23,839 bases of DNA from a virus. Below, one piece after another: positions 9,710-21,065 of this stretch. The notes beneath the pieces are model-generated. The model was not told the origin of the DNA and did not search any database. It saw only the letters and a list, made by a program, of their open reading frames with translations. The stretch is from IMG/VR virus record IMGVR_UViG_3300025276_000215, positions 1 to 23,839 of that record; one strand, 5' to 3'. The translations under genes were made by a program, and so were the position numbers. Every line of letters begins with the position of its first letter. Within the stretch, counting starts at the first letter, position 1.

Positions 9710-10006
9710 TTAATTATTTAGACTTTGTGTGTCGTAATATTCAGATCTTAAATCCGATTCCTCATCTTCATTTATTAATTTATTCTCTTGATATTTCTCT
9801 TCAGCAGCTTCTTGCCATTTTTTAGCATACTTAGCATGATTTAAAGTAAATTCAGAGTTAAAGCCTATTTTACTGATAGCCTCAATCTCTAAAACATCTT
9901 TACAATCTTCGCAATGCTGCAAGTAATCTTTACGGAGTTCCGGCAAAGTATCAGCTTCTAATGCGCCCGAATTTTCTTCTAAATCTATTGAGTAGTAAAT
10001 TTTCAT
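9710..10006 (-). CDS. Hypothetical acidic protein (98 aa)
   Basis: The ATG at 10006 (MKIYYSIDLEENSGALEADT) is preferred: the frame is open further upstream, but only through a low-complexity repeat that leaves most frames open. The protein is rich in Glu and Asp, with four aromatic/Cys positions (DYLQHCEDCKDV) and a helical C-terminal half. It starts 16 bases after the Gly-rich gene's stop. No Shine-Dalgarno is clear. Function unknown. Confidence 0.6.
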   Translation of the reverse strand: MKIYYSIDLEENSGALEADTLPELRKDYLQHCEDCKDVLEIEAISKIGFNSEFTLNHAKYAKKWQEAAEEKYQENKLINEDEESDLRSEYYDTQSLNN

Positions 10007-10022
10007 TTTGTAATTGTTTTTG

Positions 10023-10245
10023 TTAAGCGCCATAGCCATAGCCATCGCCAGATCCATCGCCATAGCCATAGCCATCACCAGATCCAAAGCCATAGCCATA
10101 GCCATCACCAGATCCAGAGCCAGATCCATCGCCATCGCCATTGCCAAAGCCATAGCCATCACCAGATCCAGAGCCATAGCCAGAGCCAGAGCCAGAGCCA
10201 TCGCCATAACCATAACTATCGCCAGATCCATAGCCGCCGCCAGCG
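10023..10245. repeat. Low-complexity hexanucleotide-like repeat region
   Basis: Units resembling GGCTAT, GGATCT and GGCGAT follow one another for about 200 bases on the minus strand. No stop codon is found in several frames on either strand. Repeats of this kind can change length by slippage in steps of six, keeping the frame. Confidence 0.75.
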
Positions 10246-10271
10246 CTTTCTACTTTATGCCTTATAATCAT
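10023..10271 (-). CDS. Gly/Tyr/Ser/Asp repeat protein (82 aa)
   Basis: After MIIRHKVESA the protein is built of short units such as GYGYGDGSGDG, i.e. Gly alternating with Tyr, Ser or Asp. The DNA is a matching hexanucleotide-type repeat. Its ATG overlaps the end of the preceding DUF6948-like gene (frame shift of the overlap, 17 bases). Low-complexity Gly/Tyr/Asp proteins occur in several phages next to DUF6948-like genes, as I recall; the function is unknown. Because the same DNA is open in other frames on both strands, the choice of frame rests on start position and the reasonable composition. Confidence 0.55.
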   Translation of the reverse strand: MIIRHKVESAGGGYGSGDSYGYGDGSGSGSGYGSGSGDGYGFGNGDGDGSGSGSGDGYGYGFGSGDGYGYGDGSGDGYGYGA

Positions 10272-10632
10272 CCTGGCCCTCGATTGACTTAATACTTTCT
10301 AATGAGCAAGGTATAAGTTCTACCGCTTGCAACCAATGTGAGCTAGTTGGAGCGCAGACTTTGCTGTCACTATGTAATCCGCTAATCGCAACTTCACTTA
10401 AAGAAATTCCTGCGTTAGTAGTTTTCCAATAGTACAACCTTCTAGCATCAGCGATAATTACTTCTGATCCACTTTTTTCGATAAGTTTACCAAAAAAAAC
10501 ACCAGCAGAATATGTTCTAACAATAACCTTTTTACCTACTAACGAATTCAATCCAGATTCGCTTGACTCTCTATTACTAAAGAGCTTCTCTATTTCTTTA
10601 AATTGACCTAAAGTCAAATCGTCTATGTTCAT
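10255..10632 (-). CDS. DUF6948-like phage protein (125 aa)
   Basis: Contains GKKVIVRTYSAGVFFGKL (33-50), then EVIIADARRLYYWKTTNAGI, with LSEVAISG, and ends SIEGQDDYKA. This is the layout I associate with DUF6948, a small beta-rich domain of unknown role found in phages. It is the first gene of the leftward unit starting at about 10700 and shares a 17-base overlap with the Gly-rich gene. No Shine-Dalgarno is visible; the leader is AT-rich. Recognition is from memory and not searched. Confidence 0.65.
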   Translation of the reverse strand: MNIDDLTLGQFKEIEKLFSNRESSESGLNSLVGKKVIVRTYSAGVFFGKLIEKSGSEVIIADARRLYYWKTTNAGISLSEVAISGLHSDSKVCAPTSSHWLQAVELIPCSLESIKSIEGQDDYKA

Positions 10633-14960: not shown

Positions 14961-15219
14961 TGTATGTTTTACATTATATTCGCAAAAGTCCTCACGGCTT
15001 GTATTTAAACTTTACCGTAATTTACTTTTGCATAAGATAGTCTGTTATTAGTATTTATTAGTCAAAGTCTATTGTAGTTAATTTCTATACATTCCGAGAA
15101 ATCATGCATAGTAAAGCGTGATTTTCTATATATTATACTTGATTTTAAAAGGCCCTATCACTAAAGTAAGGATTGAATGTTCTCCTTACTTTGTTTGAAC
15201 CCTCTTCAATCAAAGGAAA
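14961..15219. other. Non-coding region with two hairpins, likely promoter or origin
   Basis: No convincing gene is seen. On the minus strand a TATAAT lies at 15137-15132 and a second TATAAT near 14980, candidates for the DnaB-unit promoter without strong -35 boxes. Hairpins at 15098-15125 (10-bp stem, two G-T pairs) and 15163-15192 (10-bp perfect stem, arms AAAGTAAGGA/TCCTTACTTT). The AT-rich, hairpin-dense stretch directly upstream of a replication gene set could be a control region or a replication origin. Confidence 0.45.
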
Positions 15220-15261
15220 AACCGACTCAACTACCAGTCACTTTTCTAGGTTGAGTCGGTT
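15220..15261 (-). terminator. Rho-independent terminator of the 161-aa gene
   Basis: Perfect 12-bp inverted repeat AACCGACTCAAC (15220-15231) and GTTGAGTCGGTT (15250-15261), loop 18 nt. On the minus strand the stem is followed by a T-rich run (TTTTT). It lies directly after the stop at 15272, so it ends leftward transcription of the winged-helix-like gene. Confidence 0.8.
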
Positions 15262-15271
15262 ATCTCTTATT

Positions 15272-15757
15272 CTAAAGAATATCCTCCATAGTCAACTTGT
15301 CGGAAATTACGTAATTTCTAAATTTTTTATTATCAGGATTAGTAGCGATGATTTCCTTTTCGTCTTCTAGAGCCACCATTGCCCTTCTAATCCTTGATGC
15401 GCTTAGGTTACAATAAATACTACCGTAATTCCTTTCTGCATACTGAAAAACTTCACTTACCCTAGACCCATCTGTATTCTTAATGATTCTCAATATATCT
15501 AGAACTAGTACCTTTGCTCTACTTCTAGTTAAATCCTCCCCTAGCGGAGTGGAATCAATGACAATCGCAGGAATACTACAGGCATAACCTTCCAACTTCT
15601 CTTCTACGAGTCTTTTTCTTTTATTTAGGTAGGTTATTTCATATTTTATCTTCTGAAATAACTCCTTTTTATAATCTGTCTTTTGCTTAATGTCCTTAAG
15701 CTCCTCTCTCAAGAACTCCTCCTGAACTCTCTTTGTACTACTACTATCGTAAGTCAT
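15272..15757 (-). CDS. Coiled-coil/winged-helix-like protein, possible regulator (161 aa)
   Basis: I chose ATG 15757 (MTYDSSST), with GGGGG five bases upstream, over an in-frame TTG. Residues 8-55 form a Lys/Glu-rich coiled coil; residues 80-158 look like a winged helix (RAKVLVLDILRIIKNTDGSR, VSEVFQYAERNYGS, ASRIRRAMVALEDEKEIIAT). It has its own terminator downstream and a long leader upstream, so it is expressed apart from the DnaB unit. It may control the early region; this is inference. No family is recognised. Confidence 0.6.
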   Translation of the reverse strand: MTYDSSSTKRVQEEFLREELKDIKQKTDYKKELFQKIKYEITYLNKRKRLVEEKLEGYACSIPAIVIDSTPLGEDLTRSRAKVLVLDILRIIKNTDGSRVSEVFQYAERNYGSIYCNLSASRIRRAMVALEDEKEIIATNPDNKKFRNYVISDKLTMEDIL

Positions 15758-15883
15758 AACTACCCCCAAAGGTTTTAGTGAAAAAATGGTAATATCTGAA
15801 AATTAAAAATTTTCTCTACACTACACAGCGAATAAGCTCCCACAATGTTATCTTCGCTTAATGCGTACCCCGAAATCAGTTAA

Positions 15884-15949
15884 TGAAGAGGAAAGAATTG
15901 CACTTTCTACCTCCCCAAAAGGGCGCTCTACTAAATGAGCTACACTTCA
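15884..15949 (-). tRNA. tRNA-like element with reduced anticodon arm (degenerate tRNA-Pro?)
   Basis: On the minus strand: acceptor TGAAGTG paired with CTCTTCA (one mismatch), TA, D stem GCTC/GAGC with 8-nt loop, T stem GAAAG/CTTTC with loop TGCAATT, and a 5-nt variable region AGGTA. The anticodon arm is only 11 nt (CCC, TTTTG, GGG) instead of 17. Length 66 nt. The loop TTTTGGGG suggests descent from tRNA-Pro(UGG). No CCA is encoded, and the GG of the D loop is AG. Probably not a working tRNA: a remnant, an attachment-site relic, or a tRNA mimic. Confidence 0.45.
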
Positions 15950-15960
15950 TCAACCTAAGC

Positions 15961-16037
15961 CTTTCAGCTTTACAAGCCACACTAGAACCTAAAAAATTCC
16001 CCTTTGAAAAATCTAGTGCAGCTTGTAAAATTGAAAG
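15961..16037. repeat. Imperfect inverted repeat, 26-nt arms
   Basis: Arms 15961-15986 and 16012-16037 match in 22 of 26 positions, in three blocks: CTTTCA/TGAAAG, TTTACAAGC/GCTTGTAAA and CACTAGA/TCTAGTG. The two differences are symmetric 2-nt internal loops. The loop is 25 nt and AT-rich. It would fold into a long RNA hairpin or act as a two-arm DNA-binding site. Confidence 0.8.
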
Positions 16038-16240
16038 TAACGATCCTTATCCTAAATTCGTAAATCGTTGCAAAGTCTTTCAACTTCGGGAATTACTCTA
16101 AACAACGTGCTTTTATCAGTCAAGAAGAATGTTCGGTTTTTAGTAAATTAATTTGAGGAACTTCTTAGGCTCTAGTTGCCTTACGGTAATATTAAATTTA
16201 ATTACTTGCTTATTAGGTTCGGTTTTAGATAGTTTTTGTT

Positions 16241-17191: not shown

Positions 17192-17204
17192 AATTACAGG
17201 ATGA
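17181..17204. repeat. Direct repeat after the methyltransferase
   Basis: Second copy of the 16241-16265 repeat. It spans the last codons of the methyltransferase gene, its stop, and the start codon of the recombinase-like gene. Confidence 0.75.
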
Positions 17205-17563
17205 CTAAAAAGCCTTTCACTCAACGCCAGATCAAAAAGATAAAACAAATACTTTTACAAGACGGCAAAACGAGGGATTATCTATTGTTATCAATAGCAC
17301 TAGAGTTAAAGATAAAAAACTGCTATCTGTTAAGACTACAAGTTGAGGATTTATGCTATTTAGAGATTGACAGCGATACAATAGTTCACGCGATACGTTA
17401 CGCTAATGAAGAGAAGCTTCAAAATAAAGACTATCTATTTTCTGGAAATGGAAGGGGTCAGCCAATCACTAGAGTGCATTGCGCTAGGATTATTAAGAGT
17501 TGGTGCTTGAAGTTGGGTTTAGAGCGTGGTGATTACTCTACTAAGTCGCTGTTTTGGAGTTGA
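17201..17563 (+). CDS. Truncated tyrosine-recombinase-like protein (120 aa)
   Basis: Matches the core of phage integrases: FTQRQIKKIKQILLQ, then RDYLLLSIALELKIKNCYLL, RLQVEDL, DYLFSG (77-82), PITRVHCARIIKSW (88-101) and YSTKSL (112-117) where integrases have a T-H-S-L-R motif. The protein stops there, before the HxLR, second His and Tyr. At the first catalytic site K37 stands where R is expected. So it lacks most active-site residues. It may be a degraded integrase, a DNA-binding regulator, or a decoy. Confidence 0.7.
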   Translation: MTKKPFTQRQIKKIKQILLQDGKTRDYLLLSIALELKIKNCYLLRLQVEDLCYLEIDSDTIVHAIRYANEEKLQNKDYLFSGNGRGQPITRVHCARIIKSWCLKLGLERGDYSTKSLFWS

Positions 17564-20316: not shown

Positions 20317-20460
20317 ATGAATGTATTCTCAGTAAAACTACCCTTAAAACTATACAAAGAATTAGAGGTAATGTGCAAAGAATTAGAGCGATCTAAGGTT
20401 TATATAGTTAGAAAAGCTCTTGAACATTATTTAGAAAAGAAAAGGAGGGAAACTAAATGA
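20317..20460 (+). CDS. Ribbon-helix-helix (CopG/Arc-like) regulator (47 aa)
   Basis: MNVFSVKLPLKLYKELEVMC is the RHH beta strand and first helix; SKVYIVRKALEHYLEKKRRE the second helix. The size and layout fit a dimeric repressor or antitoxin-type DNA-binding protein. Its stop overlaps the next start (ATGA) and an AGGAGGG site for the next gene lies in its end. It sits beside the divergent leftward promoter with the shared 40-nt sequence, so it may bind there. No toxin gene is clear next to it. Confidence 0.8.
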   Translation: MNVFSVKLPLKLYKELEVMCKELERSKVYIVRKALEHYLEKKRRETK

Positions 20461-21065
20461 AAAAACTAACAGAAAAAGAATTTGACTCAATCAAAAGAGA
20501 TGCATTAGGGGTTAAAAATATTCCTCCTTACACTGATTTAACTGACATTAAGATCTTTGGAGAATCTTGTAGTTTTGGAGAAGATTGTAGTTTTGGGCAA
20601 TCTTCTCGCTTTGGACAACATTGTAGCTTTGGGAAATATTGCAACTTTTCCAGATTTTGCAAATTTGGAAAATATTGTACCCTTGGAGAAGATTGCGACT
20701 TTGGACAATATTGCGTCTTTGGAGAATCTTGTAGCTTTGAAGAATCTTGTAGTTTTGGACAACATTCCGACTTTGGGAAATCTTGCAGCTTTGAAGAATA
20801 TTGTAGTTTTGGAGAAGATTGTAGTTTTGGGCAATCTTGCTTTTTAGCTAATTTAAAAATAATCAACTACAAAGCCGTAGACAGAGTTGGTAAAGAAAGA
20901 AGAAAAGTCACTTGTTGGAATTTGGAAGGAACGCTATATTTTCAAGCCGGTTGTTTTTTCGACAAGGAAAAACCTTTGAAAGCTAAAGTTTTAGAAAAAT
21001 ACGGCGAAAAATGCGAGTATTTGGAAGCTATCAAATATCTAAAAAGAGTAATTAAAAAATATTAA
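20457..21065 (+). CDS. Cys-Phe-Gly hexapeptide-repeat protein (202 aa)
   Basis: From about residue 33 to 129 the protein repeats a six-residue unit of the type S-F-G-E-D-C about 16 times (FGESCS, FGEDCS, FGQHCS, ...). Cys is at 14 of the 16 unit positions. This is a probable beta-helix in which Cys residues stack, perhaps binding metal or pairing. The C-terminal part (about 130-202) is globular, with KVTCWNLEGTLYFQAGCFF. I recall similar Cys-repeat phage proteins; function unknown. The Shine-Dalgarno AGGAGGG is strong. Confidence 0.75.
   Translation: MKKLTEKEFDSIKRDALGVKNIPPYTDLTDIKIFGESCSFGEDCSFGQSSRFGQHCSFGKYCNFSRFCKFGKYCTLGEDCDFGQYCVFGESCSFEESCSFGQHSDFGKSCSFEEYCSFGEDCSFGQSCFLANLKIINYKAVDRVGKERRKVTCWNLEGTLYFQAGCFFDKEKPLKAKVLEKYGEKCEYLEAIKYLKRVIKKY

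Follow-up and report, generated by a model that had tools for sequence, protein, structure and literature searches.

The window, a 23,839-nt stretch of viral DNA, carries on its minus strand a tRNA-like element at positions 15884 to 15949. Read from 15949 to 15884, it is UGAAGUG UA GCUC AUUUAGUA GAGC G CCC UUUUG GGG AGGUA GAAAG UGCAAUU CUUUC CUCUUCA. The first open reading frame (ORF) below the element (15272 to 15769, minus strand) encodes 165 amino acids and was assigned to no family by inspection of the ORF list and family searches; no relatives of its protein were found in viral contigs or phages. A DUF6291 gene and a DnaB gene lie downstream of this ORF, and a second hairpin at its end (15211 to 15270), which gave a sub-threshold match to a microRNA family, is perhaps a terminator. 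Elsewhere in the window, positions 20457 to 21065 encode a 202-amino acid protein built of repeated CSFGEDCSFGQ-like units, with weak left-handed-helix matches that fall under the Pfam cut-offs.

The D arm of the element comprises 4 bp and an 8-nt loop and the T arm 5 bp and a 7-nt loop, with all pairs formed in both stems (4/4 and 5/5) and a variable region of 5 nt. The acceptor stem forms 6 of 7 pairs, the exception being a U6.U67 mismatch, giving 15 of 16 intact pairs across the acceptor, D and T stems. By comparison with the tRNA-Pro(UGG) sequence L406, the anticodon arm (15913 to 15923, minus strand) has collapsed to 3 bp and a 5-nt loop, CCC-UUUUG-GGG, occupying 11 nt rather than 17. The initial annotation had described these arms, the single acceptor mismatch and the short anticodon arm in the same terms, and the covariance-model search it proposed agreed with it: the Rfam tRNA model RF00005 matches 15883 to 15949 on the minus strand at 38.9 bits (cut-off 29), with E values of 1.1e-6 for 601 nt searched against 4227 families and 3.6e-6 for a 2001-nt stretch. 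The ARAGORN search, also proposed there, returned no tRNA and no tmRNA in the whole window, and cmscan with default filters did not report the element. The tRNA resemblance, with its parts correctly placed, is beyond chance; the sequence, the tRNA match, the loss of the anticodon arm and the pairing potential are all directly observed. As tRNA finders rely on the anticodon arm, tRNA-like RNAs lacking it are overlooked.

A decoding tRNA has a 5-bp anticodon stem with a 7-nt loop and U54 U55 C56 in its T loop; here the stem has 3 bp, the loop 5 nt, and the T loop reads UGC at these positions. Phage tRNAs whose arms are complete can also combine G55 with A18. Folded in isolation, the 66 nt have no clear folding advantage over shuffled sequences (z -1.45, 17 of 200 shuffles equally good) and their minimum-energy fold differs from the cloverleaf. 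When the element is numbered as a tRNA, on our own reading of the sequence, it retains U8/A14, G19/C56, U54/A58 and G26/A44, and carries U15/A48 and A18/G55 at positions where tRNAs usually have G15/C48 and G18/U55. Among the matches listed, positions 15 and 48 are G/C in 214 and U/A in 6 of the 314 tRNA-like sequences compared. The 18/55 pair was tabulated in 203 distinct tRNA-like sequences, those among the matches listed from three scans made without selection on base 18: G/U occurs in 194, G/C in 4, A/G in 2, C/G in 2 and A/U in 1. Within this set, again among the matches listed, G18 is absent from all four sequences with G55 and present in 198 of the 199 without it. A further scan for G55, the pattern of which excluded G18, gave at least 120 viral stretches, 119 of which could be parsed, and A18 was present in 115 of these 119 among the matches listed. 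A18/G55 thus reads as a coupled change in the sequences compared, not as decay as such. Since most sequences from the G55 scan have ordinary anticodon arms, the pair may be inherited and does not prove selection after the arm was lost. The at least 120 viral stretches (L334-L451) bear G55-type tRNA-like genes, nearly all with A18 among the matches listed, and one G55-type sequence, with TTCCCCTATTCCAAGGGG, is repeated in more than 12 contigs.

Outside the anticodon arm, the best match among the 314 phage and genome tRNA-like sequences listed is the phage tRNA-Pro(UGG) L406, at 41 of 55 positions, a value equalled by a short-arm element, L116. Both L406 and a second sequence, L380, have in common with the element GAGCGCCC...UUGGG...GGGAGGU in combination with A18/G55. 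From this resemblance we infer tRNA-Pro as the best guess for its origin.

The acceptor stem can be extended by five predicted pairs between GUUGA (15950 to 15954) and UUAAC (15879 to 15883), both on the minus strand, giving a stem of 12 positions that contains a single U.U mismatch; pairing at least as good as that of this extension was seen at 164 of 20000 random places. With the extension, the element folds as a four-way junction (z -2.6), the exact cloverleaf lying 2 kcal/mol over the minimum. A 26-bp hairpin, detected as an inverted repeat (15961 to 16037, minus strand; z -7.4), stands 11 nt 5' of the element. The minus-strand RNA forms 25 of its 26 pairs, and three G.U pairs would, from the sequence, be C.A on the plus strand; the non-Watson-Crick pairs therefore suit a minus-strand RNA. 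The initial annotation had overlooked both the acceptor extension and the 26-bp hairpin. Further 5' on the same strand, an 8-bp hairpin (16039 to 16069) appears in the predicted fold only, and a predicted 9-bp closing stem joins CCCGAAGUU (16082 to 16090), near the expected transcript start, to GAUUUCGGG (15869 to 15877). An end stem as strong as this one, which was chosen after the fold was seen, occurs at 15 of 5000 random places.

The 230 nt from 16090 to 15861 are predicted to form a single closed unit (z -4.86, none of 200 shuffles as good). Most of this z-score is supplied by the 26-bp hairpin, removal of which leaves z -2.25, and pair probabilities in the long fold are low, at 0.00-0.17 for the acceptor stem, 0.04 for the anticodon arm and 0.43-0.46 for the T arm. 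The stretch ranks among the most stable of the window, behind a low-complexity repeat near 9930-10110. That repeat (9710 to 10292) is open in several frames (GSGDGYG / MALAMAMD) and is the window's most stable predicted RNA. A sigma-70-like promoter match, TTGACT-17-TAGAGT (16095 to 16123, minus strand; 9/12 positions), lies 4 nt before the closing stem; it is weak alone, with 7 such matches in the region against 4.3 expected, and was picked after the fold was seen. No terminator match was found for the predicted 230-nt RNA, and no Bacteroidota-type promoter was found near the element.

These features could belong to a cis-regulatory leader that depends on the 26-bp hairpin and the closing stem, with the tRNA-like part a remnant serving as scaffold. 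The z-score of the hairpin, the location before an early operon and the ability of the 5' end to pair with the 5' arm of the hairpin (inverted repeat I5) point in this direction, but the tRNA match is too strong for coincidence and we consider such a leader improbable; no ligand or switch is, to our knowledge, known for it.

Comparison with related phages, as proposed in the initial annotation, yielded no relative of this RNA, either in the closest phages or in a pattern search of viral contigs, where the exact pattern around the collapsed arm occurred 0 times. Phage G001 (41 kb) and a contig of 9.5 kb contain tail-protein relatives; the closest phages found are G001 by its tail genes and G002 by DUF6291, and in both the corresponding place lacks the element. 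The tRNA model matches one of three related records tried, namely G002, where the match is an ordinary tRNA-Thr located elsewhere. A scanner for tRNA-like domains, run on 0.88 Mb of related loci, gave six matches beyond the ARAGORN tRNAs, none of them at the place of the element in the window. The match in L099 has the same sequence as that in L101, one of two in L096 is a tRNA-model match of 34.3 bits, and the two other matches look like chance. The DUF6291-related phages thus contain tRNA-like elements missed by ARAGORN at L096 9072-9167, L099 4153-4227 and L101 6348-6422. A weak tRNA-model match in another phage record (L478, 1501 to 1615) resembles a tmRNA 3' end. A candidate in Vibrio phage D479 was rejected as the D arm of an annotated tRNA. 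The closest phage DNA to the window, a methylase gene, comes from Cellulophaga phage phi10:1, whereas the sigma-70-like promoter and DUF968 presumably point to a host elsewhere.

On this evidence the element may be a decayed phage tRNA-Pro(UGG) gene, having lost around six anticodon-arm bases and one acceptor pair and now functionless, a reading to which we give a little less than an even chance. The likeness to L406 and L380 flanks both sides of the arm, as though both strands of the stem had lost bases, the acceptor carries its U6.U67 mismatch, and conservation was seen in no relative found. Related phages also often carry ordinary tRNAs: the tRNA model has a match at E <= 0.1 in 17 of 50 related records, with 15 of these above the cut-off, and most of the matches are ordinary tRNAs. 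Decay sits less easily with intact D and T stems and with core contacts that are almost all in place despite 14 differences in 55 positions from the closest tRNA compared, with a collapsed arm that forms a perfect 3-bp hairpin, and with an acceptor stem lengthened by five pairs. All of this would also fit a tRNA, absent from the sequences compared, that lost its arm recently. Of the decayed tRNA-Pro put forward in the initial annotation, the proline ancestry stands by resemblance to L406 and L380, and the results do not divide decay from reuse.

The same annotation had offered an old attachment site, a piece of host tRNA left after integration, beside a recombinase-like gene. The neighbour survives in part: an ORF 1.3 kb away (17201 to 17563, 120 amino acids) has one PHROG integrase match at 7e-5 and is perhaps, judging by this match, an integrase remnant, but it is a weak fragment with no Pfam match. 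The attachment site itself did not bear up and is very unlikely. The integrase-like ORF favours it, but the element is a full cloverleaf rather than a tRNA 3' end, its G55 is uncommon, and a second copy is absent from the record, no stretch of at least 11 nt from 15850-15960 being repeated elsewhere in it. Sampled genomes gave matches of only 21-28 nt at E <= 0.01, in 4 of 395 Bacteroidota and 4 of 369 Gammaproteobacteria (8 of 764 in all), a sample that may not include the group of the host.

Short anticodon arms are found elsewhere. A search pattern in which 8-14 nt take the place of the 18 of an ordinary tRNA gave at most 55 stretches in viral contigs and at most 33 in a genome collection, both being upper counts in which some tRNAs are mis-parsed (L126, L128, L174, L193). 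Among 32 distinct, well-paired short elements from the loci compared, the collapsed arm contains a hairpin of at least 3 bp in 24, where shuffles predict 10.4. The scan for normal arms covers sequences among the matches listed and yields no proportion between the two kinds of arm. A short arm would also result if an ordinary tRNA gene had been misassembled or misread in sequencing, and it is true that the window is a virus record with no stated coverage and that two short-arm genome matches, L169 and L187, have N within the arm. However, around six bases are gone at a single place with well-paired stems around it, and isolate phages also show short arms repeatedly, making an error highly improbable. 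In a literature search mainly of titles and abstract openings we found no paper on phage tRNA-like elements with collapsed anticodon arms; PMC13092985, in the portion available, omits predicted pseudogenes and covers 4-bp anticodon stems.

One short-arm element, L142, belongs to Lacticaseibacillus casei-group phages. In these phages, arrays of tRNA-like sequences (L325-L332, L482-L499, L142, L162), mostly unannotated and with shortened or replaced anticodon domains, lie between arpU and terminase. Amid the arrays is a near-invariant 62-78-nt leader, which folds as two hairpins (z -2.6) and has matches in 43 phage records, each of them from Lactobacillus or Lacticaseibacillus phages. We compared 28 loci, from 26 of the 43 leader-bearing phage records and two viral contigs, many of the remaining records being duplicate phages. 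Elements with altered anticodon domains occur below the leader in 22 of the 28 loci and, where these genes are annotated, below arpU and before terminase. An element with a GCAACCG or GCAACUG acceptor follows the leader in 18 loci, 30 to 373 nt from the leader core; a GUGAGAG element takes its place in 4, only a tRNA-Leu-like element is present in 1, and none of these in 5. The GCAACYG elements have six unrelated middles, one of which is the short-arm form, and in 22 of the 28 loci an extra mini element directly precedes the leader. ARAGORN calls a gene in 7 of the 28 loci, three untyped and two ordinary tRNA-Ile.

We aligned 20 related sequences, comprising 14 of the 18 GCAACYG elements, the four GUGAGAG elements, L130 and the element of the window. 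Pairing holds in 99.6% of acceptor and T-stem cells against 79.8% in shuffles, a difference partly by construction as the elements were found through these pairs, and sliding the partners lowers pairing to 31-51%. Changes on both sides affect 9 of 12 pairs, for example GCAACCG to GCAACUG, and are not by construction. These compensatory changes in acceptor and T stem suggest that, in L. casei-group phages, selection keeps tRNA-like RNAs that lack a normal anticodon domain. In Lbab1, a lytic Lactobacillus phage of the Herelleviridae, the leader lies approximately 280 nt below a ROOL RNA (157 bits), amid tRNA matches; within its locus, L496, the ROOL RNA and leader region spans 1-520 and 801-862 and the tRNA matches 539-645 and 1461-1533. 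The window has no such leader at 15850-16000, for which the same phage collection gave one unrelated match.

The reading that we tentatively place first, at only just short of an even chance, is that the element is a non-decoding tRNA-like domain within a structured early leader RNA; the relic is a close second, nearly equal, and no result here separates the two. Under the favoured reading, a phage-type tRNA, most like tRNA-Pro(UGG), would have become a domain unable to decode, forming the 3' end of a structured minus-strand RNA of approximately 230 nt upstream of the replication-gene operon. We infer a transcript, its folding as a unit, any binding partner and any function; the parts would run in the order promoter (near 16123-16095), closing stem, 8-bp hairpin, 26-bp hairpin and the tRNA-like domain on its 12-position stem. 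The elbow, where D arm meets T arm, is retained with the anticodon gone, and enzymes that read the acceptor and T arm, such as a nuclease that targets tRNA or RNase P, could therefore still bind the element while the ribosome could not use it. Within the early operon's leader, the element would most likely act as a module for binding or processing, or as a decoy. A possible role as a mimic, also offered in the initial annotation, gains plausibility from the fold of the RNA around the element and from the parallel in L. casei-group phages. Either way the code-reading arm has been lost, from a dying tRNA gene or from a look-alike reused for another purpose. Should such elements be mimics, they may act as decoys against tRNA-cutting defences or offer a route for the processing of phage messages by tRNA enzymes; should the element of the window be a relic, it is ordinary. 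The mostly unannotated L. casei-phage elements are the more interesting discovery. It is possible, though doubtful, that tRNA-derived RNAs form a loose class in phages, having kept the acceptor/T-arm half and elbow and lost the anticodon domain, and that instead of decoding they serve in operon leaders as tRNA mimics, whether as decoys, docking modules or processing signals. The 230-nt RNA of the window and the hypervariable L. casei elements below arpU would be members, and conflict with host enzymes that target tRNA may have diversified the variable half.

Among known RNAs, the phage tRNA-Pro(UGG) sequences L406 and L380 share with the element the D arm, G26, the ends of the anticodon arm, the AGGU variable region and A18/G55, but have a full anticodon arm of 5 bp and 7 nt, and L406 differs at 14 of 55 other positions. 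The tRNA-like domain of tmRNA likewise has an acceptor and T arm and no usable anticodon, whereas the element has a D stem and gave neither an ARAGORN tmRNA nor a tmRNA model match. Fragments of tRNA arising from integration, as presented in the accessible part of PMC9897764, are similar in placing a tRNA-like sequence beside a recombinase-like gene; the element differs in being a whole cloverleaf without a repeat. According to the available part of PMC7790460, the bacterial Y RNA YrlA is a non-coding RNA that likewise bears a tRNA-like domain, is uncut by the anticodon nuclease studied and may compete for the nuclease. The element, however, gave no Y RNA match in Rfam, and no Ro60 domain was found in 30 proteins of the window scanned with Pfam, the record probably being a fragment. 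ROOL and GOLLD are large RNAs of phages, described in PMC12286853 as having no known function and as commonly lying close to tRNA islands, whereas the RNA of the window is predicted at approximately 230 nt and matches neither in Rfam. The L. casei-phage elements resemble the element in retaining acceptor and T arm with a shortened or replaced anticodon domain, the phiAT3 type also having G55, but they belong to other phages and another genome place, with a 7-bp acceptor and a conserved leader of their own. We therefore regard them as a parallel to the element of the window rather than a demonstrated family.
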